From Amnibacterium flavum (lineage in GTDB: Bacteria > Actinomycetota > Actinomycetes > Actinomycetales > Microbacteriaceae), in assembly GCF_003097495.1 (NCBI RefSeq), contig NZ_QEOP01000001.1, positions 1,116,001-1,180,000 on the forward strand: a stretch of 64,000 nt of DNA. The letters run 5' to 3'. Position numbers and translations under genes: made by a program. Of this stretch, positions 6,558 through 29,352 are shown one piece after another. The notes below the pieces were generated by a model that was not told the DNA's origin, made no database searches, and saw only the letters and a program-made list of their open reading frames with translations. Each line of letters opens with the position of its first letter. The first letter of the stretch is position 1.

Positions 6558-6601
6558 CCCCGTTCCGGGGACTGGGCAGCGTCGGGGTGCTCCCGTAGAT
6601 T
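6558..6601 (+). promoter_or_regulatory. gmd promoter: CCCC-N5-GGGG box 25 nt before -10 TAGATT
   Basis: CCCC-GTTCC-GGGG occupies 6558-6570 and TAGATT 6596-6601, with exactly 25 nt between. The same architecture is seen at 12661, 15617, 24141 (minus) and 29352 (minus). The box would be centred near -44 relative to transcription start, a usual activator position. Confidence 0.6.
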
Positions 6602-6707
6602 GACGGGGCACACCGTCCGTGCCACCCGCTCGAATGCGCCTCGGCACCCGTGCCGCGCGCGCTCGAGGATGTGGCACCGCAATCACCCGAAGGGCCACCC
6701 ACCCACC

Positions 6708-7760
6708 ATGACTCCCCGCCGCGCTTTCATCTCCGGTATCACCGGACAAGACGGGTCCTATCTCGCTGAACTCCTCCTCTCCAAGGGGTACGAGGTGCAC
6801 GGTCTCATCCGCCGCGCCTCCACGTTCAACACCTCGCGGATCGACCACCTCTACGTCGACCCGCACAACCCCGACGCCAAGCTGTTCCTCCACTACGGAG
6901 ACCTCAGCGACGGTGCGCGCCTGGTGACGCTGCTCGCCGATATCAAGCCCGACGAGGTCTACAACCTCGGCGCGCAGTCGCACGTCCGCGTCTCGTTCGA
7001 CGAGCCCGAGCACACCGGTGACACGACGGGCGTCGGTGCCATGCGCTTCCTCGAAGCCGTCCGCCTCGCCGGCGTCAACTGCCGCTTCTACCAGGCGTCG
7101 TCGTCTGAGATGTTCGGCGCGACCCCGCCGCCGCAGAACGAGGACACCCCGTTCTACCCGCGCTCGCCGTACGGGGCCGCGAAGGTCTACGCGTACTGGG
7201 TGACCAAGAACTACCGCGAGGCGTACGACATGTTCGCCGTCAACGGGATCCTCTTCAACCACGAGTCGCCCCGCCGCGGTGAGACCTTCGTGACCCGCAA
7301 GATCACCCGTGCGGTCGCCGCCATCAAGGCCGGCAAACAGGACAGCCTGTACATGGGAAACCTCGACTCGATCCGCGACTGGGGCTACGCCGCCGAGTAC
7401 GTCGAGGGCATGTGGCGCATGCTGCAGGTCGACGAGCCCGAGGACTTCGTGCTCGCCACCGGCGTCGGCTACACCGTCCGCGACTTCCTCGAGACCTCGT
7501 TCTCGCACGTGGGACTCGACTGGCAGGAGTACGTCAAGTTCGACGAGCGCTACCTGCGCCCGACCGAGGTCGACTCGCTCATCGGCGACGCCTCGAAGGC
7601 GGAGTCGAAGCTGGGCTGGAAGGCTCAGGTCGACGGCCTCGAACTGGCTCGCCTCATGGTCGACGCCGACGTGGAAGCACTCGAGCATCAGGGCAGCCCG
7701 TGGATCGACAAGGTCGATCTGCCGTCCTGGTCGGTGCAGCGCTCCATCAAATTCGCATGA
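6708..7760 (+). CDS. gmd: GDP-mannose 4,6-dehydratase
   Basis: Converts GDP-D-mannose to GDP-4-keto-6-deoxy-D-mannose using bound NADP. 350 residues, the normal length. The nucleotide motif [14 protein letters not shown] is at residues 9-22; SSSEMFG and the catalytic YGAAK ([12 protein letters not shown]) follow near residues 125-160; [16 protein letters not shown] is typical of Gmd. The ATG at 6708 is chosen because the GITGQDG motif begins eight residues later; an earlier in-frame ATG at 6600 would add an unrelated tail. The stop overlaps the start of fcl (ATGA), so the two enzymes of the GDP-fucose pathway are translationally coupled. Confidence 0.96.
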
Positions 7761-8752
7761 GCGCCGCAGAATCCGCAGTGTCGGACGGCGTCGAGTACAC
7801 GCCGACGGCACTCGATCGCGACGCCGTCACCTATGTCGCCGGCCATCGCGGCCTCGTCGGCTCCGCCATCTGGCGTCACTTCGAAGCGCAGGGGTTCACG
7901 AACCTGATCGGCCGGCGTTCCGCCGAGCTCGACCTGCGCAACCGTGAGGCGACGTTCGCGTTCTTCGAGGAGACCAAGCCCCGCTACGTCGTGCTCGCCG
8001 CGGCGAAGGTGGGCGGGATCCTCGCGAACAACACCTACCCGCACGAGTTCCTCGCAGAGAACCTGGCGATCCAGCTCAACGTCCTCGAGGCGGCGCTCGC
8101 GCAGAAGGTCGAGCGCGTCCTCTTCCTCGGCTCGTCGTGCATCTACCCGAAGTTCGCCGAGCAGCCCATCCGCGAGGACGCGCTGCTCACCGGGCACCTC
8201 GAGACGACCAACGACGCATACGCGATCGCCAAGATCGCGGGGATCTTCCAGATCCGCTCGATCCGACGCGAGTTCGGTCTGCCGTGGATCTCGGCGATGC
8301 CGACGAACCTCTACGGACCCAACGACAACTTCTCGCCCAAGGGCTCGCACGTGCTGCCGGCGCTCATCCGCCGTTACGAGGAGGCTCGGCTGACCGGGGC
8401 TCCGACCGTGACGAACTGGGGCACGGGCACACCGCGCCGCGAGTTCCTGCACGTCGACGACATGGCCGCGGCCTGCCTGCACCTGCTCGAGAACTACGAC
8501 GGACCCGAACAGGTCAACGTCGGCACCGGCGAGGACAGCACCATCGCGACCATCGCGGCGGCTGTCGCCGAGGCTGTCGGCTACGAGGGCGAGACCCTCT
8601 GGGACACCACGAAGCCCGACGGCACACCGCAGAAGCTGCTCGATGTCAGCAAGCTGGCCGACGCCGGATGGACCTCGAGCATCGGGCTCACCGACGGCAT
8701 CAGGTCGACCGTCGACTGGTACCGCGAGCACATCGCCTCCGTCCGCGAATAG
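7757..8752 (+). CDS. fcl: GDP-L-fucose synthase
   Basis: NADPH-dependent epimerase/reductase that turns the Gmd product into GDP-L-fucose. 331 residues. An N-terminal extension of about 27 residues precedes [19 protein letters not shown] (Rossmann motif). The catalytic Ser is in LGSSCIYPK and the Tyr/Lys pair is in [11 protein letters not shown]. The start overlaps the gmd stop by the ATGA arrangement. Presence of gmd and fcl together implies that a polymer made here contains L-fucose. Confidence 0.95.
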
Positions 8753-8758
8753 ATCTCA

Positions 8759-8764
8759 TACGCT
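8759..8764 (+). promoter_or_regulatory. -10 box TACGCT for the beta-helix lipoprotein
   Basis: TACGCT begins 7 nt after the fcl stop and ends 7 nt before the GTG at 8772. It suggests a separate leaderless transcript as well as read-through from gmd-fcl. Confidence 0.4.
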
Positions 8765-8771
8765 GAGCGGG

Positions 8772-10664
8772 GTGAGCGCCGTGCGAAACCGTCGCGTGCT
8801 CACCTCCGCTCTGGCGTGCCTCGCCCTGCTGGCCTCACTCGCAGGGTGCGCGATACCGCGGCCGGCACCGCAGCCCGAGCCGAGTCCGTCGCACGTGCCG
8901 TCGCGCGTCATTCACGTCGCCCCCGACGGATCCGGAGCGGAGTGCACCGCCGCCGCGCCCTGTTCGCTCGACGGCGGGCAGCAGCAGGCACGGTCGGCGA
9001 TCGCGTCGTCGACCCGCGATGTCATCGTCTCCCTCGCGGACGGCGTGTACGAGCTCGAGAGCCCGTTCACTCTGACCGCCGCTGACTCCGGCCAGGGCGG
9101 ACACCGGGTGGTCTACCGGGCTGCCGACGGAGCCCGGCCCCTGCTGTCGGGCGGGCGGCACATCGCCGGTTGGCAGCTCGTCGACCCCGGAAACGGTATC
9201 TATCGCGCGTCCGTGCCGATAGGGACGCAGTCGCGTCAGTTCTACGTCGACGGACGACGTGCCGTCCGTGCGCGGAGCGAGGACAACCCGGCCGGCTGGT
9301 CCCTCTCTTCGCGCGGCTTCGAACTCGACGCATCGCAGCCCGCGCCCTCGTTCGCGCGCCCGGCCGACCTGGAGTTCGTCGGCGTCGCGGAGTGGCGGCA
9401 CTTCCGCTGCCCCGTCTCGGCCATCGCGGATCACTCCGTGATGCTCGCCGATCCGTGCGTGGATAACAGCCGAATCCAGGACCTGGCTGCGTTCCGCAGC
9501 GTCGCGTGGATCGAGAACGCCCGCGAACTGCTCGACGAACCAGGGGAGTGGTACCTCGACGCCGCGGAGTCGGCGATCTACTACCTGCCCCGTCCGGGCG
9601 AGGACCTCGCGACCGCCGATGCCGTCCTGCCCATCCTCGAGACACTCGTCCAGGTGGAGGGAACCTCGGCCGAGCCGCTGCACGACATCGCCTTCGAGGG
9701 CATCGGATTCGCCTATGCGACGTGGCTGCGTCCGAGCACCGGCGAGGGGTACGCGCCGGTGCAGGCCGGGTACCTGTTCCACGGCGACGCGGCGCTCGCC
9801 GACGCGACAACCGACACGGAGAAGGTGCCCGGCAACATCCGCATCGCGCACGCGGCGGGGATCGAGTTCGCCGACTCCCGATTCGAGCATCTCGGGGCTG
9901 CGGCGGTAACGATCGGCGAAGGAGCCCGCGATGTCCGCATCACCCGCAGCAGCATCGACGACGTCTCCGCGAGCGGCATCGCGGTGGGCGACGCCCTGCT
10001 GCATCACCCCGCGGAGCCCGACCAGGCTCCCACCCGCGTGACGATCAGCGACAACAGCATCACCCGCATCGGCGTCGAGTACTTCGACGCGGTCGGGATC
10101 TCGGACGTGTACTCGGACAGCACCGTGATCTCGCACAACGGCGTGTTCCAGGTGCCCTACAGCGGCATCTCGCTCGGGTGGGGGTGGGGTGTCACCGACT
10201 CCGGAGGCGCCGCCGGATTCGACGCGCCGACACCCGCGCACGCCGCTCTCGTCGAAGGCAACGAGATCGGCGCCTACCTGCAGCAACTCCGTGACGGCGG
10301 CGGGATCTACACCCTCGGCGACCTGTCGGGCGCGGTGGTGTGGGGCAACCACATCCACTCCGGCAACCGCGACGGAAGCGCCTATGTGCGTCCCGACGCG
10401 TCGGGGGCGCTGTATCTCGACGAGGCGACCCGCGGCGTGACCGTCACGGGCAACGTGGTCGAGGGTGCGGCGAACTGGTTGTTCCTGTGGACGCCGAGCA
10501 TTCGGGGCAACCTGGTCGCGGAGAACTTCTCCGACACCGGGTCGCTGGTTGACCGCGCGCCCGACAATGCGGTCCGCGACAACTGGTCATCCGGCGGCCC
10601 CTGGCCGGCGGGCGCAGAAGCGGTCATGGCCGCAGCGGGCCCCCGCCCGTCGCCCGCCCATTGA
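8772..10664 (+). CDS. Right-handed parallel beta-helix lipoprotein, possible polysaccharide hydrolase or lyase
   Basis: 630 residues. The GTG at 8772 gives a lipoprotein signal ending in LASLAGC (Cys about residue 26), so the protein should sit on the outer face of the membrane. After a Pro-rich linker comes a pectate-lyase-like fold: an early SGGRHIAGW stretch, then the insert QFYVDGRRAVRAR, and later repeated rungs rich in N/S/V (for example IRITRSSIDDVSASGIAVGD). This layout resembles beta-helix glycoside hydrolases such as the GH141 type, which includes alpha-L-fucosidases; that match is from memory and tentative. Its place directly after the GDP-fucose genes would suit an enzyme acting on a fucose-containing polymer. 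Confidence 0.75.
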   Translation: MSAVRNRRVLTSALACLALLASLAGCAIPRPAPQPEPSPSHVPSRVIHVAPDGSGAECTAAAPCSLDGGQQQARSAIASSTRDVIVSLADGVYELESPFTLTAADSGQGGHRVVYRAADGARPLLSGGRHIAGWQLVDPGNGIYRASVPIGTQSRQFYVDGRRAVRARSEDNPAGWSLSSRGFELDASQPAPSFARPADLEFVGVAEWRHFRCPVSAIADHSVMLADPCVDNSRIQDLAAFRSVAWIENARELLDEPGEWYLDAAESAIYYLPRPGEDLATADAVLPILETLVQVEGTSAEPLHDIAFEGIGFAYATWLRPSTGEGYAPVQAGYLFHGDAALADATTDTEKVPGNIRIAHAAGIEFADSRFEHLGAAAVTIGEGARDVRITRSSIDDVSASGIAVGDALLHHPAEPDQAPTRVTISDNSITRIGVEYFDAVGISDVYSDSTVISHNGVFQVPYSGISLGWGWGVTDSGGAAGFDAPTPAHAALVEGNEIGAYLQQLRDGGGIYTLGDLSGAVVWGNHIHSGNRDGSAYVRPDASGALYLDEATRGVTVTGNVVEGAANWLFLWTPSIRGNLVAENFSDTGSLVDRAPDNAVRDNWSSGGPWPAGAEAVMAAAGPRPSPAH

Positions 10665-11030
10665 GCTTGTCGAAATGAAGGGACGGCCGCTCACTGAGCC
10701 CGTCGAAGTGAAGGCCTGCGCGTCCCCCGCCCATTGAGCGCAGCGAAATGAAGGGGAAGGTCCGAGGGGAGTGGCCTCTTCGTTTCGACGAGCTCAACGG
10801 GCGGGCCGCTCACTGAGTCCATCGAAGTTGGGGCCTGCGCGTCCCCCGCCCATTGAGCGGAGCGAAATGAAGGGGAAGGTCCGAGGGGAGTGGGCTCTTC
10901 GTTTCGACGGGCTCAACGGGCGGGCCGCTCACTGAGCCCGTCGAAGTGGAGGCTTCGCTCTGCGGGCGGCGGCCCCGCTCACTGAGCCCGTCGAAGTGGA
11001 GGCCTGCGCGTCGCTTCGCTCTGCGGGCGG
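10654..11030. repeat. Tandem REP-like repeat array at a convergent gene end, ~119-bp period
   Basis: The 426 bases between the converging genes ending at 10664 and 11091 are almost filled by this array. The core is a 17-20-base motif in both orientations: CACTGAGCCCGTCGAAGTG on one strand and TTTCGACGGGCTCAACGGG on the other. A longer unit beginning GGCCTGCGCG occurs at 10713 and 10832 (period 119), with a degenerate copy at 11001. Short copies of CTTCGCTCTGCGGGCGGCGG occur twice at the right end. The same core and nearly the same period recur at 36984-37215. Confidence 0.85.
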
Positions 11031-11042
11031 CGGCTCAGACGG

Positions 11043-11078
11043 CGAAAGGGCCGGGCTCCGAGGAGACCGGCCCTTTCG
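11043..11078 (-). terminator. 12-bp perfect stem terminator
   Basis: Arms CGAAAGGGCCGG (11043-11054) and CCGGCCCTTTCG (11067-11078) with a 12-nt loop lie directly after the stop of the leftward cytidylyltransferase gene. There is no U-tract, as is common in actinobacteria. Confidence 0.7.
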
Positions 11079-11090
11079 ACGAGCTGGGTG

Positions 11091-11537
11091 TCAGGACGCG
11101 AGTGCGGCGGGGGCGGAGATGCCCGAGTTGATCGCGGCGAGGGCGCGACGCAGCGTCGTGCTCGACGTGGAGGCGGTGTACGGGAAGTAGACGACCTCGA
11201 CACCGACCTCGGCGAACTCGATCTCGAGGCGGCGGCCCTTCTCGGTGCCGCGCCAGTCGTCGCCCTTGAAGAAGATGTCGAAGCGGAGCTCCTCCCACAT
11301 CTGCATCTTCGTGGGCAGGTCCTCGGCGACGGCACGGTCGACGTAGCGGCTGTTGCCGACGATCTCGAGGCGCTCCTCGAGTCCGATGACGGGGGTGATG
11401 CCCTTGTTGATCTGGAGCATCTCATCGGAGACGACACCTGCGATGAGGAAGTCGCACTGGCTCTTCGCGCGCTTCAGCAGGTTGAGGTGGCCGATGTGGA
11501 AGAGGTCGAAGGCGCCGGCGGCGTACCCGACCTTCAT
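11091..11537 (-). CDS. Cytidylyltransferase family protein, TagD (glycerol-3-phosphate cytidylyltransferase)-like
   Basis: 148 residues, close to TagD length. The HxGH nucleotidyltransferase motif is in GAFDLFHIGHLN (residues 8-19). FFKGDDWRGT (near residue 94) matches the TagD KGDDW motif, and STSSTTLRR takes the place of the usual RxxGISTT motif. It would activate a phospho-alcohol such as glycerol-3-P with CTP. A possible user of the product is the CDP-alcohol phosphatidyltransferase at 29487. The exact substrate is not shown by the sequence. Confidence 0.85.
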   Translation of the reverse strand: MKVGYAAGAFDLFHIGHLNLLKRAKSQCDFLIAGVVSDEMLQINKGITPVIGLEERLEIVGNSRYVDRAVAEDLPTKMQMWEELRFDIFFKGDDWRGTEKGRRLEIEFAEVGVEVVYFPYTASTSSTTLRRALAAINSGISAPAALAS

Positions 11538-11805
11538 CGGGCGATCACCGCAAGGGTGGAGGGGTTGACGGGGTGCTTGAGGGTTCCGTTGGGTAGACGG
11601 AACGCCAAAAGAGGCGTGGTCACGATGATCCTGTTCGGGTGTACAGGTGATGCTGCGGGTGGGGGGACACTCCCGCGAACGAGTGACGGCGCAGAGCGCT
11701 GGGTAGGCGCTCCAGTGGGGTGGCTTGATCAGCTCCCGCGGGGGATTCCGTCAGACTAGCGAGATCAGCCGTCCAGGATCAAGGCCGGAAAGCCCCGATT
11801 CCGCC

Positions 11806-11818
11806 CCCCGTGAGGGGG
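11806..11818 (-). terminator. GC-rich hairpin after the SGNH gene
   Basis: CCCC-GTGA-GGGG with an extra G lies 8 bases beyond the stop of the leftward SGNH gene and can form a short hairpin. No -10 box lies at the 25-nt spacing on either side, so I read it as a terminator rather than as one of the promoter boxes. Confidence 0.4.
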
Positions 11819-11825
11819 ACAGGGG

Positions 11826-12575: not shown

Positions 12576-12582
12576 GCCGGGA

Positions 12583-12622: not shown

Positions 12623-12660
12623 CGACCGCCCCGATACGGGTCGTCACCCTCGTCCATGCC

Positions 12661-12704
12661 CCCCGTTTCGGGGCTCTCGTCGGAAGGCCTCCTTTGGATA
12701 GGCT
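12661..12704 (+). promoter_or_regulatory. CCCC-N5-GGGG box 25 nt before -10 TAGGCT, upstream of the first sugar-phosphotransferase
   Basis: CCCC-GTTTC-GGGG (12661-12673), 25 nt, then TAGGCT (12699-12704). The predicted transcript has a 5' leader of about 140 nt before the GTG at 12849. Confidence 0.6.
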
Positions 12705-12848
12705 CGCCGACTGAGGGACTACCCATCCCTCGAAGAGATCACCCCTCTCTTCGTACCTCTCGCATCCCCGAACCCGAAACGGTGGAACGCGCTCGAGTGC
12801 CCTCGCGCACCCGGAAGCGGTCGCCCCTTCTACCCGAGAAGGCGTCAC

Positions 12849-14339: not shown

Positions 14340-14378
14340 CCTCTCGAGGGGGCGCCTCGCCTGCGAACCCCTCGCTCA

Positions 14379-14414: not shown

Positions 14415-14438
14415 CGTGCGGGCGGGATTCCGCCGCGA

Positions 14439-15616: not shown

Positions 15617-15660
15617 CCCCGAAGAGGTGAACGCGCCGCGAGGGTGATGCCGCCTAGCGT
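15617..15660 (+). promoter_or_regulatory. CCCC-N5-GGTG box 25 nt before -10 TAGCGT, upstream of the WcaI-like GT
   Basis: CCCC-GAAGA-GGTG (15617-15629, one mismatch in the right arm), 25 nt, then TAGCGT (15655-15660). The exact spacing supports this weaker copy. Confidence 0.5.
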
Positions 15661-17935: not shown

Positions 17936-20900
17936 CTAGCCGAAGGTGAGGACCAGGGTCGGGCGGTACGCGGCGTTCGCTGCGTTGTTCGACCAGAGGC
18001 GCACGTTGTCGGTGCCGGTGCTGGTCAGAGCGAACGAAGCGGTGGTGCCGAGCAGACCCTGCAGGGCGGCCGCGTCGAGCTGCACCGTGTAGTTGGTGTT
18101 CAGCGCGGTCGCACCGGTCAGGGCGCCGAGGCGGACGCCGATCCCGGTCGGACGGTTGGTCCAGGTGACCGTGTTCTCCGCCCAGTCGCCCGAGAGGAGC
18201 GATACGACGTGCTCGTCGGCCGAAGCCGCAGAGGCGTCATCCGAGGTGCGGACCTGCAGGGTCGCGCCGGTCAGAGTCGTTCCGGCCGGAGCTGCGGGCA
18301 GCGCCACCTTCAGGTAGGACTCGATCGCCGAACCGCTCGCGGGGCCCCTCGACGAGATCTGGTTCGTCAGCCCGTACGGGTTGTTCGCGTTGACCGCGGC
18401 GACCATCGAGTCCTCCGAGACCTGCACGGTGACCGTCTGTCCACCGGTCGCCGGAGGCGTCGCCGCCACCGTCGCCGAGGCCGAGCCGCTCGCGGCGCTG
18501 CGGTTGCCCGCGGCGTCGGCCGCGTCGACGCGGTAGAACCAGGTTCCGGCCGGACGTGCCGAGTCGGTGTACGAGGTTCCGTTCACATCGGCGATCTTCG
18601 ACGAACCGTCGGCGGCGAAGTCACTGGTCGTTCCGCGGTAGACCGCGTAGGAGGTGACTCCGACCGCGTCGCTCGCGGCAGCCCAGCTGACGGACACGTT
18701 CTGTCCGCTCGCCGATGCCGCGACCGAGGCCGGGACCGTGGGCGCCGTGGTGTCGGCGACCGGGGTCGGCGTCGTTCCGCTGGTCGGCGTGTAGGTGAGC
18801 GTCAGGACGGGGCGGAACGCCGCGTTCGTCTGCTCCTTCGACCAGAAGCGCGCGTTGTCCGTACCGGTACCGGTGAGCGCGAGCGACACGGTGCCCGAGG
18901 TCGCGAGACCTGCGGGGTTCAGATCAGCCGTGTAGTTCGTGTTCAGGGCGGGGACCGAGTTGAAGCGTCCCAGCTCGGCGCCGACACCCGTCGGGCGGTT
19001 CGTCCACGTGGTGGTCGCTTCCGACCACGATCCGGTGAGCGAGCGCACGACCTGTGCTTCGGTCGACGTCGCCGTCGCATCCGAGGAGGACCGGAGCTGG
19101 AGCGTCGCCTTGGTCAGCGTCGTTCCGGCCGGGGTGGCGGGCAGAGCGAAGTCGAGGTAGGACTCGATCGCGCTCGAACCGCCACGCGAGGACAGCTGGT
19201 TGGTGGCGCCGTACGGGTTGTTCGGGTTCACCTGGGCGGCCATCGTGTCCTGCGACGGCGAGAGGGTCACGATGACCGGCTCGGCGGCGGGGGCGGCGAT
19301 GGTGACCGACGACGCGGCGCTGGCGGCGCTGCGGTTGCCCGCGGCGTCGACGGCGTCGACCTTGTAGAAGTACGTGCCGAGGGCCAGGCCCTGGTCGGTG
19401 TACGTCGTGCCGGTCACGTCGGCGATCTTCGACGAGCTGTCAGCGGTGAAGCCGGCAGTCGTTCCACGGTAGACGCTGTAGCCCGTCACACCGGTCGCGT
19501 CGGTCGACGCGGTCCAGCTGAGAGCGGCACTCGTCGCGCCGGCGACACCGGTCAGACCCGCGGGCACCGTGGGTGCCGTGGTGTCAGCGACCGGGGGAGT
19601 CGTCGTGGTGGGCGAGTAGGTGAGCGTCAGCTGCGGACGGTACGCCGCGTTCGTCTGCTCGTTCGACCAGAAGCGGGAGTTGTCCGATCCGGTCGCCGTC
19701 AGAGCGATCGAGGTGCTGCCGGTGAGCGAGCGCAGTGCCGTCGCGTCGAGCGCCACGTTGTAGGTGGTGTTCATCGCGGGGACGCCGGCGATCGAACCGA
19801 TCTGCGCGCCGAGACCCGTGGGGCGGGTGTTCCAGGTGCTGTCATCCGACCAGCTGCCCGTGAGCAGTCGCACGTTCTGCGCATCCGTCGAAGCCGAGGT
19901 GGCATCCGAGGAGGTGCGCAGGCGGAGCGAGGCACCGGTCAGCGTGGTGCCGGCCGGAGCCGACGGCAGCGTGAAGGCGAGGTACGACTCGATGGGAGTC
20001 GTGCCGCGGGCCGACAGCTGGTTCGTCGTGCCGTAGACACCGTTCGCGTTGACCTGCGCCACCATCGTGTCCGAGGTCGGCGACAGGGTCACCGTGACGG
20101 GCTCGACAGCCGGCTGCTGGATCTGGGCGGACACCGCACTGCTCGAGGCACTCACGTTGCCGGCGGCGTCGGACGCCGTGACCCGGTAGTAGTAGGTGCC
20201 CGGTGCGAGCCCGCTGTCGACGTAGCCGGTGGTCGCGGTCTGGGCGATCACGGTCGACTGGTCGGCGACGAAGCTGCTCGAGCTGCCGCGGTAGACGGTG
20301 TAGCCCGTCGTACCGAAGGTGTCGTTCGACGCCGACCAGGCCAGGTTCACGCTCGACGTGCCCGCTGTCGCGGTCAGGTTCGCGGGAACGGTCGGGGCGG
20401 TCGTGTCGGCGACGATCTCAGCCGAGACGGTGCTGCTCGCGGCACTCACGTTGCCGGCGGCGTCGGACGCCGTGACCCGGTAGTAGTAGGTGCCCGGTGC
20501 GAGCGAGCCGTCGAGGTAGCTGGCGGTCGTGGTCTGGGCGATCACGGTCGACGCGTCGGCGACGAAGTCGCTCGAGCTGCCGCGGTAGACGGTGTAGCCC
20601 GTCGTCGCGACGTTGTCGGCCGAGGCCGTCCATGCCAGGTTCACGCTCGTCGTTCCCGCAGCCGCGGTCACTCCGGCGGGAACCGCCGGTGCGCTCGTGT
20701 CGGTGACGACGGCCTCCGCCGAAGCCGCCGGTCCGGCGTTGCCTGCCGCGTCGACCGCGAGCACCTTGTAGTAGTAGGTGCCCAGGGTGGCGGGGGTGTC
20801 GGCGTAGACCAGCTCGGTCGTCGTCTGCCCGATGAGGGTGCTGGCGTCGGCCGTGAAGTCGGCGCTGCTCCCGCGGTAGACGCGGTAGCCGGCGATCGCG

Positions 20901-23900
20901 TGATCGTCGGTCGCCGCGGTCCAGGCGAGCGACACGGTGCCGTCGGCGACGGTCGCGCTCAGCGGGGCGACACCCGAGGGGGCGGCCACGTCGGAGACGC
21001 CGATCGCGTAGTGGCGGGCGACCTGCTCGGCCGTCAGCGACTGGCTGTAGACGGCGACCTCATCGAACTTCGCCGAGACGTAGTCGGAGGAGGGGCGGTT
21101 CGGCCATCCGGAGATGTTGCCGCCGCCGATGCGCCAGTAGCCGGAGAAGGTCTCGCTCTGCGTCGTCGGGTTGGTTCCGATGAGGATCCCGTCGACGTAG
21201 AAGCGCATTCCCTGGGCGTCCTGCGTGGCGACCACGTGGTGCCACGCGCCGTCGTTGTAGGAACGCGGGGTCTGGATCGCCTGGACGGAGCCGTTGTACA
21301 CACCGAAGGTGAGTCGGCCGTCGTTGCTCAGGTAGACCTGCTTGTCGTAGCCGCTGCTGCTGCCGGTCGGCTGGTTCTCCCAACCGATCAGCTTGCCGCC
21401 GCGGTTCGTGGTGCTGCTGAACCACAGCTCGGCCGCGAAGGCTCCGACGCGTCCGGCCTGGGGGCTGGTGACCGTGGAGTTCTGCGAACCGTTGGTCTCG
21501 AAGGCCGACGAGTTCTGCACGGCTCCCGTGCGTCCCATCTGGACCTGCGGTCCGACGGTGCCCGGGTTCGCCTTGGCGAACGTCGAGTCGGCCGCGACCG
21601 ATCCGGACGTCTCGTTGAGGCGCCAGAACAGGTTCGGGTCGTCGTTGAAGACGGCCGCGCCGTAGCTGTCGCTCGGGACGGTGTTGACGTCGGGGGTTCC
21701 GCCGCCAGCCGTGTAGTGCGCGGCGACCTGCTGGGCGTTCAGAGCCTTGTCGTAGATGGCGGTCTCATCGATCGAGCCGGCGAAGAACGAGCTGGAGGGC
21801 TGGTTCGGCCATCCGCCGATGCTGTCGCCACCGACCCGCCAGACGCCCTTGTAGGAGTCGCCCGACGTGGTGCCGTTGCGTCCGACGAGGACACCGTCGA
21901 CATAGAACTTCATGCCGGTCCCGTCCATGGTCGCGGCGACGTGGTGCCATTGGCCGTCGTTGTAGGACTTCGAGGTGCGGATCGTCTGCGTGCCGCCCTT
22001 GTAGACGCCGAAGGTCAGGCGACCCGAGTTGTCCATGTAGACGTGGTTGTCGTAGTTGCCGCTGCCGACCTGCTGGCTGTTGTCGGTGCGCGGGCGTCCG
22101 TTGCCGAAGCCGATGATCTTGCCGCCGCTGGTCGTGGTGGTGTTGATCCAGCTCTCGACGGTGAAGACGTCGGGACGTGTCTCGTACTTGTCGTCCCACA
22201 TGTAGTCGTTCGAGCCGTCGAAGGTGGCCGAGCCGCTGCCGGCGATCGCGCCGGTCGAGGTCGTGGTGGCCCCGTCCATCAGCTGGCCGACACGACCGGT
22301 GGTCGAGGGGCCGGCGGAGTCGTCGACGATCGTGTTCGTGGTGTCGTAGCGCCAGAACGTCTGCGGTGAGTCGGCCAGGACGGCCGCTGCGTAGGCGTTG
22401 CTGGTGGTGGCGACGGTGACGCTCACCCGGGTGGAGAGGGGGGAGACGCGAACGCTGTCCTCCGCGGTCACGCGGTAGGTGTGGGTGGTGCCGGGGGCGA
22501 CTCCGGAGTCGACGACCGTCACGCCGGGGCGGGTCCACCAGAGGGACTTCGCGGTTCCGGTCCAGAACGGGGTCGCCGAGCTGTCGCGGTAGACCTTGTA
22601 GGTCAGGACGTCGTCATCCTCGTCGACGACGGTGCGGAAGCTGATTCGCACCTGACCGGCGACGGCCGAGGTCGCCGTGGCGACAGGCGTGGGGATGGTT
22701 CCGCTGTCGGTCGTGCCGAATCGGGTCAGACCGTTCTGCAGGACGCCGTTGATGCGGGTGAACTCGCCGGCGGCCCAGAGGTACTTGGCCCCGTTGGAGG
22801 CGGTGGCGACGGTCAGTGCGCGCGGGCCGATGCCCTCGCCCCATCCGTCGTTGGCCTGCGGGAACCAGCCGAACTGCTCGCCCGTGGTCGTCGACTGCGC
22901 GGTGAAGTAGTGGCGCGAGCCGTCCTGGTAGGTGCCGAGGTCGGTGCAGTCGTGGGTGTGGTGTCCCGCGTAGAGCGCGTTGTTGTAGACGGCGAGCGCC
23001 TGGGTGGCGCCGAAGCAGCCGTCGCGCCAGACCTGGTCGTAGCTGTTCCAGTCGATCGCGAAGCGGCCGTCGAAGACGTGTCCGCCGGTTCCCTCGTTGC
23101 CGACGAACAGGGTGGTGCTGTTCGAGGCGAAGACGTGGGTCCACGAGGTGACGGGGATACCGAGCTCGGAGATCTGGCCGGCCTGCGCGTCGGAGATGAT
23201 GAACGACTTCGGCCAGGTGCGTACCGGAGCGCCGGAGACGGCGTCGACGATCGCGAACGAGTAGGCGTTGTCGGCGCCGGCGAGAGCGGTGAACTCCCCA
23301 CCGATCGCGACGCGCGTTCCGTCGGGCGAGACCTGCACGGCGCGGCCGATGCCGTTCGCGTTCGGGTTCCAGTCGAGGGTGGCGCCGGTCGCGGGGTTCA
23401 CCGCGGCGAACCGGTTGCGGGTCGTGCTTCCGAGGGAGGTGAACTGGCCGGCAAGGTAGACGGCCGAGTTCGTGGCCGTGACGCCCCACACGATGGCGGA
23501 GGGGCTGGCGACCTTGAAGTTCGTGTCGAGCGTGCACGCGATCGGGTCGATCTTGGCCACGCGCTGCATCGACACCCCGTTCACCGAGGTGAAGTTGCCC
23601 GCGATGTAGACCGAGTTGCCGTCGGGCGAGACCGCGATGGAGCGCACGGAGGGCGACGCGCTCGGCATCGCGACCGTGAACTGGCAGTTCGTCGGGGCGC
23701 CGGTCGCGGCGTCGAAGATGGCGAGAGCGGCCTGCGGACGGGCGGCGCCGCCCTGCGAGTCCGGCGGCCGGATGGTGGTGAAGCTTCCGCCGGCGATGAC
23801 GACACCCTTGGTGGCGCCGATGGCCCACGCGGTGTTGTCGGTCTGCCAGGTGGAGAGGTCGTCAGCACTGAAGTCGACACCCTCCGAGAGAGCGGAGGCC

Positions 23901-23974
23901 GATGTGAGAGGCATGGCCACGAGGAGGCCTGCCAGGACTGTGGTCGCCAGAGCGAGGCCAGTGAATTTGCGCAC
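17936..23974 (-). CDS. Giant secreted multidomain protein (propeller-like, FN3, LamG, DNRLRE domains)
   Basis: 2012 residues from the GTG at 23974, which has GAGGGA 9 nt upstream and gives a Sec signal ending near residue 29 (TSASA). Approximate layout: 30-425 repeated GGEFT/GNFTS propeller-like blades with VSPDG motifs; 428-521 FN3; 526-765 LamG; 768-988 second LamG; 998-1291 three FN3; 1292-1453, 1566-1726 and 1848-2012 three DNRLRE (CBM96-like) domains, with an FN3 between successive copies. The conserved DNRLRE words are TNQLS.RG, ESYL and W.NRPTG. No LPXTG motif or C-terminal helix is seen, so it is probably released or held by sugar binding. It is a longer paralogue of the protein at 25693-29163. 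A matrix or adhesin role is inferred. Confidence 0.85.
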   Translation of the reverse strand: MRKFTGLALATTVLAGLLVAMPLTSASALSEGVDFSADDLSTWQTDNTAWAIGATKGVVIAGGSFTTIRPPDSQGGAARPQAALAIFDAATGAPTNCQFTVAMPSASPSVRSIAVSPDGNSVYIAGNFTSVNGVSMQRVAKIDPIACTLDTNFKVASPSAIVWGVTATNSAVYLAGQFTSLGSTTRNRFAAVNPATGATLDWNPNANGIGRAVQVSPDGTRVAIGGEFTALAGADNAYSFAIVDAVSGAPVRTWPKSFIISDAQAGQISELGIPVTSWTHVFASNSTTLFVGNEGTGGHVFDGRFAIDWNSYDQVWRDGCFGATQALAVYNNALYAGHHTHDCTDLGTYQDGSRHYFTAQSTTTGEQFGWFPQANDGWGEGIGPRALTVATASNGAKYLWAAGEFTRINGVLQNGLTRFGTTDSGTIPTPVATATSAVAGQVRISFRTVVDEDDDVLTYKVYRDSSATPFWTGTAKSLWWTRPGVTVVDSGVAPGTTHTYRVTAEDSVRVSPLSTRVSVTVATTSNAYAAAVLADSPQTFWRYDTTNTIVDDSAGPSTTGRVGQLMDGATTTSTGAIAGSGSATFDGSNDYMWDDKYETRPDVFTVESWINTTTTSGGKIIGFGNGRPRTDNSQQVGSGNYDNHVYMDNSGRLTFGVYKGGTQTIRTSKSYNDGQWHHVAATMDGTGMKFYVDGVLVGRNGTTSGDSYKGVWRVGGDSIGGWPNQPSSSFFAGSIDETAIYDKALNAQQVAAHYTAGGGTPDVNTVPSDSYGAAVFNDDPNLFWRLNETSGSVAADSTFAKANPGTVGPQVQMGRTGAVQNSSAFETNGSQNSTVTSPQAGRVGAFAAELWFSSTTNRGGKLIGWENQPTGSSSGYDKQVYLSNDGRLTFGVYNGSVQAIQTPRSYNDGAWHHVVATQDAQGMRFYVDGILIGTNPTTQSETFSGYWRIGGGNISGWPNRPSSDYVSAKFDEVAVYSQSLTAEQVARHYAIGVSDVAAPSGVAPLSATVADGTVSLAWTAATDDHAIAGYRVYRGSSADFTADASTLIGQTTTELVYADTPATLGTYYYKVLAVDAAGNAGPAASAEAVVTDTSAPAVPAGVTAAAGTTSVNLAWTASADNVATTGYTVYRGSSSDFVADASTVIAQTTTASYLDGSLAPGTYYYRVTASDAAGNVSAASSTVSAEIVADTTAPTVPANLTATAGTSSVNLAWSASNDTFGTTGYTVYRGSSSSFVADQSTVIAQTATTGYVDSGLAPGTYYYRVTASDAAGNVSASSSAVSAQIQQPAVEPVTVTLSPTSDTMVAQVNANGVYGTTNQLSARGTTPIESYLAFTLPSAPAGTTLTGASLRLRTSSDATSASTDAQNVRLLTGSWSDDSTWNTRPTGLGAQIGSIAGVPAMNTTYNVALDATALRSLTGSTSIALTATGSDNSRFWSNEQTNAAYRPQLTLTYSPTTTTPPVADTTAPTVPAGLTGVAGATSAALSWTASTDATGVTGYSVYRGTTAGFTADSSSKIADVTGTTYTDQGLALGTYFYKVDAVDAAGNRSAASAASSVTIAAPAAEPVIVTLSPSQDTMAAQVNPNNPYGATNQLSSRGGSSAIESYLDFALPATPAGTTLTKATLQLRSSSDATATSTEAQVVRSLTGSWSEATTTWTNRPTGVGAELGRFNSVPALNTNYTADLNPAGLATSGTVSLALTGTGTDNARFWSKEQTNAAFRPVLTLTYTPTSGTTPTPVADTTAPTVPASVAASASGQNVSVSWAAASDAVGVTSYAVYRGTTSDFAADGSSKIADVNGTSYTDSARPAGTWFYRVDAADAAGNRSAASGSASATVAATPPATGGQTVTVQVSEDSMVAAVNANNPYGLTNQISSRGPASGSAIESYLKVALPAAPAGTTLTGATLQVRTSDDASAASADEHVVSLLSGDWAENTVTWTNRPTGIGVRLGALTGATALNTNYTVQLDAAALQGLLGTTASFALTSTGTDNVRLWSNNAANAAYRPTLVLTFG

Positions 23975-24097
23975 GTTACTAAGTCCCTCGGGTATGCACG
24001 GCGCGGGTAACAACGCGCGGTGCGGGTGTCGGGTGGGGTGGGATTCCGCGGTGCGCCGGGGTGAGGCGCATGGGGTACCGCTGGTATTCCGTGTCCG

Positions 24098-24141
24098 AGG
24101 CTACTGGGACGGGGTACCCCCCGTCTGTCCCCAGTAGGGGG
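24098..24141 (-). promoter_or_regulatory. CCCC-N5-GGGG box 25 nt before -10 TAGCCT for the giant surface protein
   Basis: On the minus strand CCCC-CTACT-GGGG (24141-24129), 25 nt, then TAGCCT (24103-24098). The leader to the GTG at 23974 is about 115 nt and ends in GCATACCCGAGGGAC, which also precedes the paralogue at 29163. Confidence 0.6.
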
Positions 24142-24206
24142 GCACCCGCTCGGGGCCGCCCCGGTCGGCTTTTCCCCTGGTCAAGCAGACTTTGTCGACA
24201 GGTGTC

Positions 24207-25667
24207 CTAGACGACCGACACGCGTCGGAACTCGACGGCCGGATCGGAGGGGGCGGAGCGCAGGAGGCTGACGTAACCGAGTTCGCTCGCGATTCCTGGC
24301 GCGGTCACGGACTTCGAGCTGTCGCTGTCCCGCGTGAGCGTCGCGCCGCCTCCGAAGAGTGCCACGGTGAGGCCGATCCACTCACCCGCGCGGGGAGCGG
24401 AGGACTCGAGTGCGGCGAGGGTTCTGCCGCCCTGCGCGACGGAGACGGTGCCGGAGGCGCCGACCAGCACGGTGACCGCGTCGGGAGAGCCCGCCGGGCG
24501 CGGGTTGTCGTCGCCGGCGCCGAACGAGAATCCCGCCGCGGCACCGCCGGACGGACCGGCATCGGGCCAGCGCAGCTCGAGCGAGACCTTGGTCGCATCC
24601 GCTGCCGCGGGGCTGAGGGAACCCAGCACGTAGGTGGCGGTCTGACCGGGACTCATGCGCAGCGTCGCCGAAGCGGGATCGATGTACGGCTGCTGCGACC
24701 AGTCCGAGCCGATGACATCCGGCAGGTCTCCCGCCGACCTGAGACCGGACGCGAACGCATCCGCGTCGGAAGCGGGCTCCTCCGTGAAGAGGTAGGGGAT
24801 GTCAGCGCACATCATTCCGACGACGCCGAGGGACACCAGTCGGTCCCGTTGCGATCGGCGGCGCACCTCCCAGGCGATGACGGGCTTGCCGATCGCCGCG
24901 AATGCGCTCATGTCGGCGTCGCTCGCGTCGACGGGGATGCCCAGCATGTCGAACCGCGGAGCCAGCTCCGCGAGCCGGCCGAGACTGTCGGGGGTGAAGT
25001 AGCCCCAGGTACGGAATCCGCGCTTCGCAACGGCCTGGTACTGCTGTGCGCCGGCCCACTGCTTCCAGACGAAGCGGATGTGGTCGGGGTCCCACTGCTC
25101 CATCAGATCGAGCAGCTCGGCGGTGTTCGTGCCCTGCTTGTCCTCGAGGAAGATGACGTGCGTGCTCGCGAACGCCGCGAGAACGTCGTCGAGCCGGGGG
25201 ATGGGCTGCAGTGCCGCCAGAGGCCCGAGCCACGGGCGGGCGTCGTTCTGCAGCGTCGACAGCTGCTCCCAGGTCGCATCGCCGATGTCGAGGTCGACCC
25301 CGGTGAGTCGGGCCAGGTTCTTGTCGTGGTGGCACACGAAGACGCCGTCGCTCGTGCGGCTCACCGAGACTTCGATCGCCTTCGCGCCGGCGATGACGGA
25401 GTTGGCGTACGCGTCGTAGGTGTGCTCGACCCAGTTGTCGCCGGATCCGCGGTGCGCGATGAAGAAGGGCGAGGTCTCGAGCAGGGAGTCGATCGTGTAG
25501 GGCCCGCCCGTCGGGGCCGGCGGAGGAGTGGGCGACGCCGCGGTAGGGCTGGGCCGAGGAGGCGCTGGCGTCGGCGCGCAGGCCGCGAGCAGAAGGGTGC
25601 TGCCGCCGATCAGGAGGAAGCCGCGGCGCGAGAACGCGGAACGGGACGCCGACGGTCGCTGTGCCAT
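24207..25667 (-). CDS. Tat-exported lipoprotein of the glycerophosphodiester phosphodiesterase (GDPD) family
   Basis: 486 residues. The N-terminus has SRRGFLLIGG (Tat-like twin Arg) and a lipobox LAAC near residue 30, then a Pro/Thr linker. The GDPD barrel spans about residues 55-310: IAHRGSGDNWVEHT with the catalytic His/Arg, a conserved Glu in AIEVSVSRTSDG, and VCHHD. The usual metal-binding Asp two residues after that Glu is Ser here. The remaining ~170 residues look like a beta-rich jelly-roll/LamG-like domain. It could cleave glycerophosphodiesters from wall polymers or lipids. It lies between the two giant paralogues in the same orientation. Confidence 0.85.
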   Translation of the reverse strand: MAQRPSASRSAFSRRGFLLIGGSTLLLAACAPTPAPPRPSPTAASPTPPPAPTGGPYTIDSLLETSPFFIAHRGSGDNWVEHTYDAYANSVIAGAKAIEVSVSRTSDGVFVCHHDKNLARLTGVDLDIGDATWEQLSTLQNDARPWLGPLAALQPIPRLDDVLAAFASTHVIFLEDKQGTNTAELLDLMEQWDPDHIRFVWKQWAGAQQYQAVAKRGFRTWGYFTPDSLGRLAELAPRFDMLGIPVDASDADMSAFAAIGKPVIAWEVRRRSQRDRLVSLGVVGMMCADIPYLFTEEPASDADAFASGLRSAGDLPDVIGSDWSQQPYIDPASATLRMSPGQTATYVLGSLSPAAADATKVSLELRWPDAGPSGGAAAGFSFGAGDDNPRPAGSPDAVTVLVGASGTVSVAQGGRTLAALESSAPRAGEWIGLTVALFGGGATLTRDSDSSKSVTAPGIASELGYVSLLRSAPSDPAVEFRRVSVV

Positions 25668-25692
25668 CGGTCGCCCCGTTCCTCGTGTCGTA

Positions 25693-28600
25693 TTACTGGG
25701 TGAAGGTGAGGGTCAGCGACGGACGGTACGTCGCCGAGGCCTCCTTCGACCAGATGCGGATGTTATCGCCGCCGGTGCTCGTGATGGCGACCGACGCGGT
25801 GGTTCCCAGCAGACCCGCCAGCTGGGCGGGGTCCAGCTGCACGTTGTACGCCGTGTTGAGGGAGGTCGCACCGGTGATCGTCCCGACCGTCGCGCCGAGG
25901 CCCGTCGGACGGTTGTTCCACGTCGTGCTCGCCTCGGACCAGCTGCCGTTCAGCAGTCGGATGAGGTGACTGTCCGCGGACGCGGCGGTGCCGTCGTCGG
26001 AGGTGCGGACCGTCAGCGTGGCCCCGGTGAGGGTGGCGCCGGCGGGCAGCGACGGGAGAGCGAACTTCAGGTAGCTCTCGAGCGGGACCGTGCCGCGTGA
26101 CGACAGCTGGTTGGTGCCGCCGTAGACGAACGCCGCGTTGTTCGAGGCGACCATCGTGTCCTCGATGGGGGCGACGGTCTGCGTGGTCGTCGACCCGCCG
26201 CCGCCGGCCACCGTGGCGCTCGCCGCAGCGGATGCCGCGCTCGCATTGCCGGCCGCGTCGACCGCGATCACCTTGTAGTAATAGGTACCCGCTGCGAGTC
26301 CCGTGTTGGCGAACGTCGTGCCGGTCACGGTACCGACCAGAGAGCCGGCCGAGGTCGTGAAGCCGGCGGACGTTCCCCGGTGCACCTGGTATCCGGTCAC
26401 CCCGACGTTGTCCGTCGCCGCAGCCCAGCCCACATTCACCGTGCTGCCCGCTGCGCTCGCCGTGACCGATCCCGGCACCGACGGAGCGGTGCTGTCGGCG
26501 GCCTGGGCGACGGTCGCCGTGCCCGAGCCCGAGGCGCTGCTCGAGTTGTTCGCCCCGTCGAACGCGACCACCTTGTAGAACCAGGTGCCCGCGGCGACGC
26601 CGCTGTCGGTGTACGAGTTGGTCGTGACGGTTCCGATGAGGTTGCCGGCCGTCGGCGTGAAGCCGGTGGTGGTTCCCCGGTAGACCCGGTAGCCGGTGAC
26701 TCCGACCGCGTCGGTCGACGCCGTCCACCCGAGCGCCACCGAGCTGCCGGTGACGGTCGCCGTGGGTGTGCCCGGCGTGGTCGGTGCGACGGTGTCGGGT
26801 GCGACGCTCCCGCCGCTGCCGACCGCGTAGTGGTTCGCGACCTGGGCTGCGCTGAGCTGCGTCGGGTACACGGCGGTCTCGTCGATGGAGCCGGCGAAGT
26901 ACGGGCTCGTCGGCGCGACGGCCCAGAACGGGCGGCGCGAGTTGCCGACACCGTCGAAGCCGACATGCCAGACGCCGTTGAAGTCGCGACTGTTGCTGGT
27001 CACCTGAGCGTTCGACCCGGCGAGAGCGCCGTCGACGTACAACTGCATCCCACCCGCGCCGAGGGAGGCGACGACGTGGTGCCAGCGGTTGTCGTTGTAG
27101 GAGGCGCTCGTCTGCAGTGTCCGGGCCGACCCGCTGAAGACGCCGTAGTTCAGCCGGCCGTCGTCGCTCATGAAGACCTGGTGATCGAACGTGAAGCTCT
27201 GCATCAGGTTGCCGGTGTCGATGTACTGGCGCTGGTTGCCGTAGCTGATGAGCACACCACCTCGCGTGGTGCTGGTGCGGAACCAGGTCTCGGTCGTGTA
27301 GGTGCTGGGATCACGCGTGAACTGGTCCTCCCAGACGTAGCCGGTGCTGCCGTCGAAGGTGGCCGAGGTGCTGGAGTCGCCGGCGATGGCGCCGCTCTGG
27401 GAGCGGGTCACACCGCCGCCGTAGAGCCCGTTGATGCCGGTGGTCGTCGCACCCGACTTGTCCTGCAGCCAGGCGCCCGAAGCCTCGTCGTACCTCCAGT
27501 AGAGGCTCGGAGAGTTCGCGAGGACCGCCGAGGCGTAGGCGCTGCCGGTGGCGGACGCTGTGGCGGATACGGCGCCCGACAGGGCCGACACGTTGCCGGT
27601 CGCGTCGGTGGCCGTCACCCGATAGGAGTAGTTCGTCCCCGCTGTGACGGAGGAGTCGACGACGGTCACCTGGGGCCGCGTCCAGAAGACGGAGCTCGCG
27701 GTGCCGGTCCACATCGGAGTGGAGGAGCCGTTCCGGTAGACGCGGTAGGTGAGCAGGCTGTCGTCCGAGTCGACGACGGTGCGGAACCGGATCTGGATCT
27801 GACCGGCGACGAGCGCCTGCGCCGTCGCGCTCGGTGCGGCGGGTGCGTTCGAGTCGGTCGTGCCGAATCGGGTGATCGCCTGCTGGTTCGCGCCGTTCAC
27901 CTTGGTGAACTCGCCGACGGCCCAGAACCAGCGGTTGCCTGAGCTGCCGGTGGCCACGTCGATTCCGCGCGGTCCGATGCCCTCACCGGTGCCCTCGTTG
28001 GTGTCGGGGAACCAGCCGTAGAACTTGTTGAAGTTCGCGGCGTCGGTGGGCTGGGCGGTGAAGTGCTGACGCTCGTCGCCCTGCCATCCGCCGATCGAGG
28101 AGCAGTCGTGTGCGTGGCTCGCGCCGTAGAGCACGTTGTTGTAGAGCAGGATGTCCTGCGTCGCGCCGTTGCAGGTGTCCTTCCAACGCAGGTTGAGGCT
28201 CGACCAGTCGAGGGCCGCACGGCCGTCCCATGAGCCGACGCCGGCACCTTCGCTTCCGATGTAGAAGCCGCTGGCGTCGGAGGTCACGGTCTTGATCGCG
28301 TCGTTGTTGTTGAAGAAACCCGACGGGTTGGCGACGCGGTCGTACTTCGGGTAGCTCTTCTTCAGGGCCCCGGTCGTCGGGTCGAGGACCGCCAGCGCGT
28401 GCGAGTCGGTCTCGTTGACGTAGTCAAACTCGCCGCCCATCACGAGGTTGCTGCCGTCGGGGGAGAGGGCGAAGCCGAGTGCCGCGGTGACCGGGAGGAC
28501 GGTGATCCTGGGATTGTTCGGGTCGAGTACGTCGTCCGAGCGCAGAACCGGGTTGAACGGCGTCAGTGCGCCGGTCGAGGCGTTCACCGCGGCGACCCGA

Positions 28601-29163
28601 TACCGGGTGCTGCCCGCGACGCTGCCGAATTCTCCACCGAAGTAGAGGGTGCCGTTCGGCGCCGGGAAGATGCTGCGCACCATGCCGCCGACGTTCGGGT
28701 TGAACGTGCTGACGAGGGTGCAGGTCACGGGGTTGATGGCGGCGAGGCGGTTGCGCGTGGTGCCGTTGATCGCCGTGAAGTTGCCGCCGATGTAGAGCAC
28801 GTTGCCCGACGTCGCCGGGGTGATCGCGCGGATCGAGGCCGTCCCGCTCGACGCGGTGACCGTGAACTGGCAGCTCGTGGGGTTACCGGTGTCGGCGTTG
28901 AACAGGGCGAGAGCCGTCCGGTTCTGGGCTGTTCCACTGCCTCCGGCCGGCGGCGAGATCCGGGTGAAGCTGCCTCCCACGGCGACGACGCCTCCCGTGG
29001 ACGCGACCGCGTAGGCCAGGTTGTTGGCCTGCCAGGTCGGTGATGCTTCTGCTGCGAACGGGATTCCCGCCGAGAGCGCCGACGCTGGCGCTGCGGCAGA
29101 GATGCCGACGAAAGTCGAGACGGCGACCGCGAAGATGGCGGTCATCGCAATGGGCTTGCGCAT
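25693..29163 (-). CDS. Large secreted multidomain protein (propeller-like, FN3, LamG, DNRLRE)
   Basis: 1156 residues from the ATG at 29163, which has GAGGGA 10 nt upstream and gives a Sec signal ending near PASA. Approximate layout: 30-440 propeller-like region with GGSFT, GGNFTA and GGEFG blades; 441-538 FN3; 540-780 LamG; 788-990 two FN3; 991-1155 one DNRLRE domain ending the protein (TYRPSLTLTF). This is the same plan as the 2012-residue paralogue with fewer C-terminal modules, so one probably arose from the other by duplication and module gain or loss. Both share promoter architecture and leader sequence. The stop is 26 bases before the GDPD start. Confidence 0.85.
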   Translation of the reverse strand: MRKPIAMTAIFAVAVSTFVGISAAAPASALSAGIPFAAEASPTWQANNLAYAVASTGGVVAVGGSFTRISPPAGGSGTAQNRTALALFNADTGNPTSCQFTVTASSGTASIRAITPATSGNVLYIGGNFTAINGTTRNRLAAINPVTCTLVSTFNPNVGGMVRSIFPAPNGTLYFGGEFGSVAGSTRYRVAAVNASTGALTPFNPVLRSDDVLDPNNPRITVLPVTAALGFALSPDGSNLVMGGEFDYVNETDSHALAVLDPTTGALKKSYPKYDRVANPSGFFNNNDAIKTVTSDASGFYIGSEGAGVGSWDGRAALDWSSLNLRWKDTCNGATQDILLYNNVLYGASHAHDCSSIGGWQGDERQHFTAQPTDAANFNKFYGWFPDTNEGTGEGIGPRGIDVATGSSGNRWFWAVGEFTKVNGANQQAITRFGTTDSNAPAAPSATAQALVAGQIQIRFRTVVDSDDSLLTYRVYRNGSSTPMWTGTASSVFWTRPQVTVVDSSVTAGTNYSYRVTATDATGNVSALSGAVSATASATGSAYASAVLANSPSLYWRYDEASGAWLQDKSGATTTGINGLYGGGVTRSQSGAIAGDSSTSATFDGSTGYVWEDQFTRDPSTYTTETWFRTSTTRGGVLISYGNQRQYIDTGNLMQSFTFDHQVFMSDDGRLNYGVFSGSARTLQTSASYNDNRWHHVVASLGAGGMQLYVDGALAGSNAQVTSNSRDFNGVWHVGFDGVGNSRRPFWAVAPTSPYFAGSIDETAVYPTQLSAAQVANHYAVGSGGSVAPDTVAPTTPGTPTATVTGSSVALGWTASTDAVGVTGYRVYRGTTTGFTPTAGNLIGTVTTNSYTDSGVAAGTWFYKVVAFDGANNSSSASGSGTATVAQAADSTAPSVPGSVTASAAGSTVNVGWAAATDNVGVTGYQVHRGTSAGFTTSAGSLVGTVTGTTFANTGLAAGTYYYKVIAVDAAGNASAASAAASATVAGGGGSTTTQTVAPIEDTMVASNNAAFVYGGTNQLSSRGTVPLESYLKFALPSLPAGATLTGATLTVRTSDDGTAASADSHLIRLLNGSWSEASTTWNNRPTGLGATVGTITGATSLNTAYNVQLDPAQLAGLLGTTASVAITSTGGDNIRIWSKEASATYRPSLTLTFTQ

Positions 29164-29308
29164 GGAAACCTTGTCCCTCGGGTATGCGAACGAAGGCAAG
29201 GGCACCTTTGTCCGCGGGAATGATGACGACGATCCGGGTGCGATGAGGACGCCGATTTCGGGTGGGCGGCCCGGTGCGCACGTCGGAGGACGACGAATGG
29301 GTGTCTGC

Positions 29309-29352
29309 AACATAGCGCACCCCAAGGTTGGGGCGTTGGCCCCAGAATGGGG
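29309..29352 (-). promoter_or_regulatory. CCCC-N5-GGGG box 25 nt before -10 TATGTT for the second surface protein
   Basis: On the minus strand CCCC-ATTCT-GGGG (29352-29340), 25 nt, then TATGTT (29314-29309). A second GGGG/CCCC repeat (CCCCAACCTTGGGG on the minus strand) lies within the 25-nt spacer, overlapping the -35 region. Confidence 0.6.

Follow-up and report, generated by a model that had tools for sequence, protein, structure and literature searches.

A 64,000-nucleotide stretch of the Amnibacterium flavum genome (the window; contig C1, positions 1116001-1180000) encodes enzymes of exopolysaccharide synthesis and giant surface proteins. Several of these genes share a palindromic promoter site, CCCC-N5-GGGG, placed 25 nucleotides upstream of a TANNNT -10 box, and transcript leaders in which the word ACCCG recurs on the sense strand. 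Sequence comparison of the window with its own genome (G000; 3.57 Mb, 99.99% complete), the eight other Naasia genomes (G001 to G008) and further Microbacteriaceae indicates that these genes, which serve exopolysaccharide synthesis and the surface proteins of the matrix, probably form one regulon under two common layers of control.

A spaced palindrome at exopolysaccharide and surface-protein genes

The first-pass annotation had listed five places with the motif CCCC-N5-GGGG-N25-TANNNT. All five are present, four of them as exact matches and the fifth, at 15617 on the plus strand, with one mismatch (GGTG instead of GGGG). The list was incomplete, as two further sites with at most one mismatch lie on the minus strand at 11775-11818 and 41350-41393. 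A comparison with dinucleotide shuffles, from which all expected window counts of the spaced motif were taken, bears the motif out: seven matches with at most one mismatch stand against 0.54 expected. The bare palindrome has 10 matches in the window (8 distinct places) against 2.9 expected, and a TANNNT box follows within the next 50 bases in only 4 of the 20 strand-specific palindrome readings, each time at exactly 25. Coordinates are collected in Table 1.

Table 1. Predicted promoter sites, leaders, hairpins and target gene in the window
Feature	Position	Strand	Basis or remark
Promoter site CCCCGTTCCGGGG-N25-TAGATT of gmd-fcl	6558..6601	+	exact match
Predicted gmd leader, three ACCCG	6602..6707	+	ATG at 6708, where GDP-mannose dehydratase homology begins
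TagD-like cytidylyltransferase-fold protein, target gene	11094..11623	-	Pfam PF01467; orthologues
Leader of TagD-like gene	11624..11774	-	predicted leader
Hairpin CCUGU-ACACCCGA-ACAGG directly before GTG start of TagD-like gene	11630..11647	-	predicted hairpin
Hairpin GAGCGC-CUACCCA-GCGCUC in TagD-like leader; loop ACCCA, not ACCCG	11694..11712	-	predicted hairpin
Weaker site, -10 box mismatch, upstream of TagD-like nucleotidyltransferase	11775..11818	-	model match C1:1127772, E 1.8
Promoter site CCCCGTTTCGGGG-N25-TAGGCT of first polyprenyl glycosylphosphotransferase (WbaP type)	12661..12704	+	exact; same spacing in G003 orthologue
Leader of first WbaP-type transferase, three ACCCG	12705..12848	+	predicted leader
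Hairpin CCUUCU-ACCCG-AGAAGG	12826..12842	+	also in G003 orthologue
One-mismatch site (GGTG variant) of WcaI-like glycosyltransferase	15617..15660	+	motif search
Leader of first giant surface protein, four ACCCG	23975..24097	-	predicted leader
Promoter site CCCCCTACTGGGG-N25-TAGCCT of first giant surface protein (17939-23974)	24098..24141	-	exact match
Leader of second giant surface protein, three ACCCG	29164..29308	-	predicted leader
Promoter site CCCCATTCTGGGG-N25-TATGTT of second giant surface protein (25696-29163)	29309..29352	-	exact match

Control DNA was drawn from the contig of the window as 20 stretches of 20 kb (400 kb), and on neither strand did it yield a site with a spacing of 24-26 and at most one mismatch. 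The other offsets in this DNA set the expectation at about 0.2 sites for exact matches and 2.7 for one mismatch, which makes the control clean but modest. In a 459-kb set of exopolysaccharide loci, comprising Naasia and Frondihabitans clusters from the window and six relatives, a TANNNT box lies downstream of the exact palindrome 2, 3, 12, 3, and 1 times at offsets 23 to 27, respectively, and seldom at any other offset. The 80 named Microbacteriaceae loci (1.49 Mb) gave 3, 6, 14, 27, 15, and 4 such cases at offsets 22 to 27, with about one per offset away from the peak and one stray value of 7 at offset 15. These counts are partly non-independent, given that runs of five C or five G are read in two registers, that near relatives such as several Cryobacterium carry an identical site again, and that about six of the 80 named loci are Naasia contigs that had been covered before. 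Once near copies were removed, 27 different exact sites of spacing 25 remained; four are window sites, and all 27 were used to build a promoter model. Judged from the sequences, the spaced motif is not due to chance, because spacing 25 occurs in 27 cases in the named loci against about one for each unrelated spacing. The site at 15617 is probably real as well, because its GGTG variant recurs at the TagD-like genes of three other Naasia genomes. The inner bases, which the annotation had described as different at each of the five promoters, also vary among the sites of the relatives, together with the spacer bases.

A -35 consensus is missing: in a collection of 30 sites, the most frequent base is never found in more than 18 of 30, whether in the 12 positions that follow the palindrome or in the 12 that precede the -10 box. 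Provided that transcripts begin about 7 nucleotides past the -10 box, it follows from the geometry that the centre of the palindrome lies near -44 of this predicted start. From this position and the missing -35 consensus we infer activation by a bound factor.

In the relatives, the spaced site precedes genes for WbaP-type transferases, Wzz/kinase-like proteins, glycosyltransferases, DUF4012 and TagD-like proteins, and giant surface proteins, most of them assigned by homology or by eye. The Wzz/kinase-like genes of three Naasia genomes carry the site CCCCTATCTGGGG. At 34600-34960 of the window, the Wzz/kinase gene lacks the canonical site seen in these three and has only imperfect CCCC/GGGG repeats upstream. 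The TagD-like gene is a probable further target in the window via its site at 11775-11818. The giant proteins of the window have LamG, FN3, and CBM96 domains and propeller-like N-termini, and 51 of the 80 named loci include a homologue in the part covered. The comparison across Naasia and Microbacteriaceae thus supports the proposal of the first-pass annotation that exopolysaccharide synthesis and matrix proteins are joined in one regulon.

A model search of the own genome, in which 150 of 1547 first-pass candidates were scored, placed four window sites within the top five, all four of which had been part of the model. The remaining top-five site, C2:212499, is an exact match from outside the model; it precedes a predicted 50-residue membrane protein, and its leader contains one ACCCG and ACCC hairpins. 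A weaker match at C1:880744 (E 2.4) belongs to the gene of a secreted protein, whose leader carries three ACCCG, and some other weak matches look chance-like. A weak match (E 1.4) was also found upstream of a gene for a SipW/archaeal-type signal peptidase at C1:166942 and is probably due to chance. Searching 60 relatives with the same model yielded 51 matches in 29 genomes with E values up to 0.05.

ACCCG leaders and their display on hairpins

The sense strand of the leaders, from the -10 box to the start codon, repeats ACCCG(A), which in other Naasia often takes the form TTACCCGA. This was analyzed in 27 leaders obtained from 30 hand-collected sites after three of less than 15 nucleotides had been dropped. 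They contain 54 ACCCG against 9.1 in shuffles, 11 of them in five window leaders, and the complement only once. The density of 24.6 per kb compares with 2.1 in the background of the own genome. ACCCA, ACCCC, ACCCT, TCCCG, and GCCCG are all near shuffle level.

The strand bias recurs in a second, partly overlapping set of leaders from 42 non-redundant exact sites. Within 120 nucleotides, ACCCG is found on the sense strand in 35 and on the antisense strand in 1 of the 42, and ACCCGA occurs 41 times in sense and never in antisense orientation within the first 100 nucleotides. For comparison, 122 other genes of this genome were examined, their starts being assigned by a simple reading-frame rule; 34 of them have ACCCG in sense and 24 in antisense orientation. 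At 25 new loci inspected from the model search of relatives, ACCCG was counted 21 times in sense and 6 times in antisense orientation over the first 150 nucleotides. Regions upstream of TagD-like genes were collected from 78 of the 80 named loci without promoter selection or de-duplication (L239 and L247 were omitted because they are too close to a contig end). These contain 136 ACCCG in sense (57 loci) and 21 in antisense orientation (19 loci), and for ACCCGA the respective counts are 78 and 5. Some leaders carry up to nine ACCCG. Many TagD-like genes (for example L201, L212, L237, and L248) begin with ATG-ACC-CGA. This places ACCCGA right on the start codon, even though such genomes use the codon CGA only rarely.

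ACCCG often forms the loop of a hairpin whose stem sequence is different each time. Besides the window hairpin at 12826-12842 (Table 1), examples are CUCCCGU-ACCCG-ACGGGAG and CGAGUCGU-ACCCGAAUC-ACGACUCG in Frondihabitans and GGCGGCC-ACCCGAA-GGCCGCC in Cryobacterium. A contiguous stem of at least 5 base pairs surrounds ACCCG in 34 of 174 non-redundant instances, compared with 11.6 when the right flanks were permuted; the maximum of 1000 permutations was 25, and none reached 34. The words GCGCC, CGGCG, GACCC, CGACC, CCGAC, and TCGGC stay near expectation in this test. Local folding places 38 of 61 ACCCG in a hairpin loop against 21.4 expected, and a strict global folding test gave 14 of 60 against 3.2. 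Among pentamers in perfect hairpins of the 80 named loci, a sample that includes coding DNA and mixes both strands, ACCCG ranks third among complementary pairs (95 against 54). The pairing of the ACCCG flanks into varied stems beyond the level of permuted flanks points to control of the leaders at the RNA level, presumably by a trans-acting factor.

Two putative control layers and competing explanations

The following model is a probable account of these patterns. In the first layer, a dimeric activator would bind the CCCC-N5-GGGG palindrome near -44 and recruit RNA polymerase to promoters with a TANNNT -10 box and no -35 element. In the second layer, most of the resulting transcripts would start with leaders holding one to about nine ACCC(G) elements, many of them exposed in the loops of hairpins and, in many leaders, with one copy next to the start codon. 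Translation or stability of the whole set would then be governed by a trans-acting factor that reads ACCCG and is a protein rather than, less likely, a small RNA. For both layers the pattern is observed and the mechanism is our inference from it. A further-reaching and more tentative reading, possible but somewhat short of probable, is that an as yet undescribed global post-transcriptional regulator of the Microbacteriaceae, unrelated to CsrA, Hfq, and ANTAR proteins, reads looped ACCC(G) in leaders with several such sites and is wired to a dedicated promoter class.

Several observations weigh against a regulon with two control layers. Seven of the 42 promoter-selected leaders lack ACCCG within 120 nucleotides, and the leader at 15617 has none. 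In the 200 bases upstream of the palindrome at the 42 loci, ACCCGA occurs 12 times in antisense and 2 times in sense orientation, perhaps from divergent genes. As many as 23 of 61 ACCCG lie outside any predicted loop, and in the stem test the overlapping word CACCC is also high, with CCACC and ACCCC mildly so. The start-codon hairpin of the TagD-like genes shows one compensated pair and no excess of covariation (78 of 500 shuffles were as high). In more distant genera, many WbaP, giant-protein, and TagD homologues lack one or both elements, and many of the 25 new loci inspected among the 51 model matches look chance-like. Furthermore, the long form TTACCCGA, common in the leaders of other Naasia, has 17 matches in the own genome and none of them in the window. 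It was rejected as a finder of the regulon in this genome; one of the 17 matches lies in an ACCCG array (L139; C1, about 1469359, minus strand). In this array, several ACCCG are spread over intergenic DNA that folds strongly and precedes a reading frame of 25 codons; on its two sides lie genes identified by eye as glycogen-branching-type and, in convergent orientation, thioredoxin-like. It is possibly a sponge RNA or encodes a leader peptide.

A first alternative holds that only the promoter layer is regulatory, at the level of DNA, and that ACCCG represents directional DNA sites downstream of the start, for example half-sites for the activator itself or for a different DNA-binding protein. 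The strand bias alone would fit this equally well, and CCC is common to both elements. However, ACCCG flanks pair via unrelated arms, which would be needless for a DNA-binding protein, and ACCCG lies on the start codons of TagD-like genes, so that this explanation appears unlikely. We give the same low probability to the leaders being targets of a small RNA with CGGGU loops. C-rich loops are suited to pairing with G-rich loops and Hfq-independent small RNAs occur in Actinobacteria, but the recognized core comprises only about 5 bases with variable flanks. The look for complementary RNA was limited to TTACCCGA matches on both strands of the own genome, and no systematic search was made.

It is very unlikely that the leaders are rut sites for Rho-dependent attenuation. 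They are indeed C-rich and G-poor (39% C, 26% G in the 27 leaders), yet ACCCG is enriched while the related words TCCCG, GCCCG, ACCCA, ACCCC, and ACCCT remain near shuffle level, and hairpin display is not a known property of rut sites. As the sole cause, rut sites are rejected by this pentamer test. Finally, a chance or inherited pattern without function, conceivable insofar as CCCC and GGGG are common under high G+C content, is hardly credible for the spaced palindrome, as it is contradicted by the sharp spacing peak at unrelated promoters of several genera and by the lack of sites in the 400 kb of control DNA.

In agreement with the annotation, which saw no regulator gene in the window, no DNA-binding domain was detected among 27 window proteins scanned, which do not cover every open reading frame; 5 of the 27 have no Pfam match at all. 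By eye, without a domain scan, no regulator was recognized among the conserved neighbours of the TagD-like gene. No leader family was found in the window by Rfam at gathering score, and in 7 of the 80 named loci scanned in this way there were three tRNA matches only.

Known RNA regulators were considered as readers of the leaders. CsrA (PF02599) has no match in the own genome, and the enriched leader word is ACCCG/ACCCGA rather than ANGGA, so that a CsrA/RsmA regulon was rejected. CsrA is present in 27 of the 60 genomes searched. It is found in 6 of the 8 other Naasia genomes and was not found in G002 or the incomplete G005. Hfq (PF17209) has no match in the own genome either, and Hfq-dependent small-RNA regulation was rejected on this ground. 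The own genome encodes one ANTAR protein (C2:856164). ANTAR targets are two hexaloop hairpins with A1 and G4, and the loops ACCCG, ACCCGA, or ACCCGAA have C at position 4, which led to the rejection of ANTAR antitermination.

As to the promoter layer, a gene for a NarL-type response regulator with REC and HTH domains was compared in the nine Naasia genomes; in G000 it lies on C2 near 311431. Upstream of this gene, the palindrome is followed by TANNNT at 23, 24, and 22 in G005, G007, and G001, respectively. In G004, G003, G006, and G008 it occurs without TANNNT in range, in G008 within a terminator-like inverted repeat, and in G000 and G002 no upstream palindrome was seen. This regulator as the activator is a weak lead that would be correct with a small chance at best. 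Autoregulation of this gene is argued against by the window's own genome.

Known systems and implications

The promoters resemble activator-dependent promoters in their fixed operator to -10 spacing across unrelated genes and in the lack of a -35 consensus. The two half-sites of the palindrome have a centre-to-centre distance of 9 bp, and NarL/LuxR-type activators such as DosR/DevR and VraR use such half-site geometry and a position near -44. We know of no named member of this type with CCCC-N5-GGGG as operator. The leaders resemble those of the CsrA/RsmA system of Gammaproteobacteria and others, in which a short motif is present in multiple copies, often in loops and with one near the start codon, and whose targets include matrix genes. 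That system differs in its motif, ANGGA instead of ACCCG, and CsrA was not found in the own genome. ANTAR targets are similar in having tandem hairpins in leaders and differ in the hexaloop, where G instead of C occupies position 4.

Among the titles and abstract openings of the open-access literature, no paper was recognized as describing the operator or the ACCCG leader. The nearest printed parallel in the literature searched comes from Beggiatoaceae, where TAACTGA is directly repeated ahead of start codons and has been proposed as the binding site of a post-transcriptional regulator (PMC4679880). Both systems place a short repeated word beside start codons; the word is another one in Beggiatoaceae, and no functional pattern was evident among the genes there (PMC4679880). 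In contrast, the leaders described here belong to one functional set and combine a shared promoter with hairpin display.

These findings suggest that slime-coat genes of soil bacteria in this family are governed at the level of DNA as well as RNA by a control system that has not been described before. To our knowledge, little is known about post-transcriptional control of mRNA without Hfq in Actinobacteria, and the leader RNA offers a ready bait for an RNA-reading regulator. The signature of palindrome, spacing 25, and ACCCG leader would allow a family-wide matrix regulon to be listed from sequence, plant-associated genera included, and it ties uncharacterized giant surface proteins to exopolysaccharide synthesis. 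If the reading with a global ACCC(G)-reading regulator is true, control of the matrix would be exerted twice, first on the DNA and then on the RNA.

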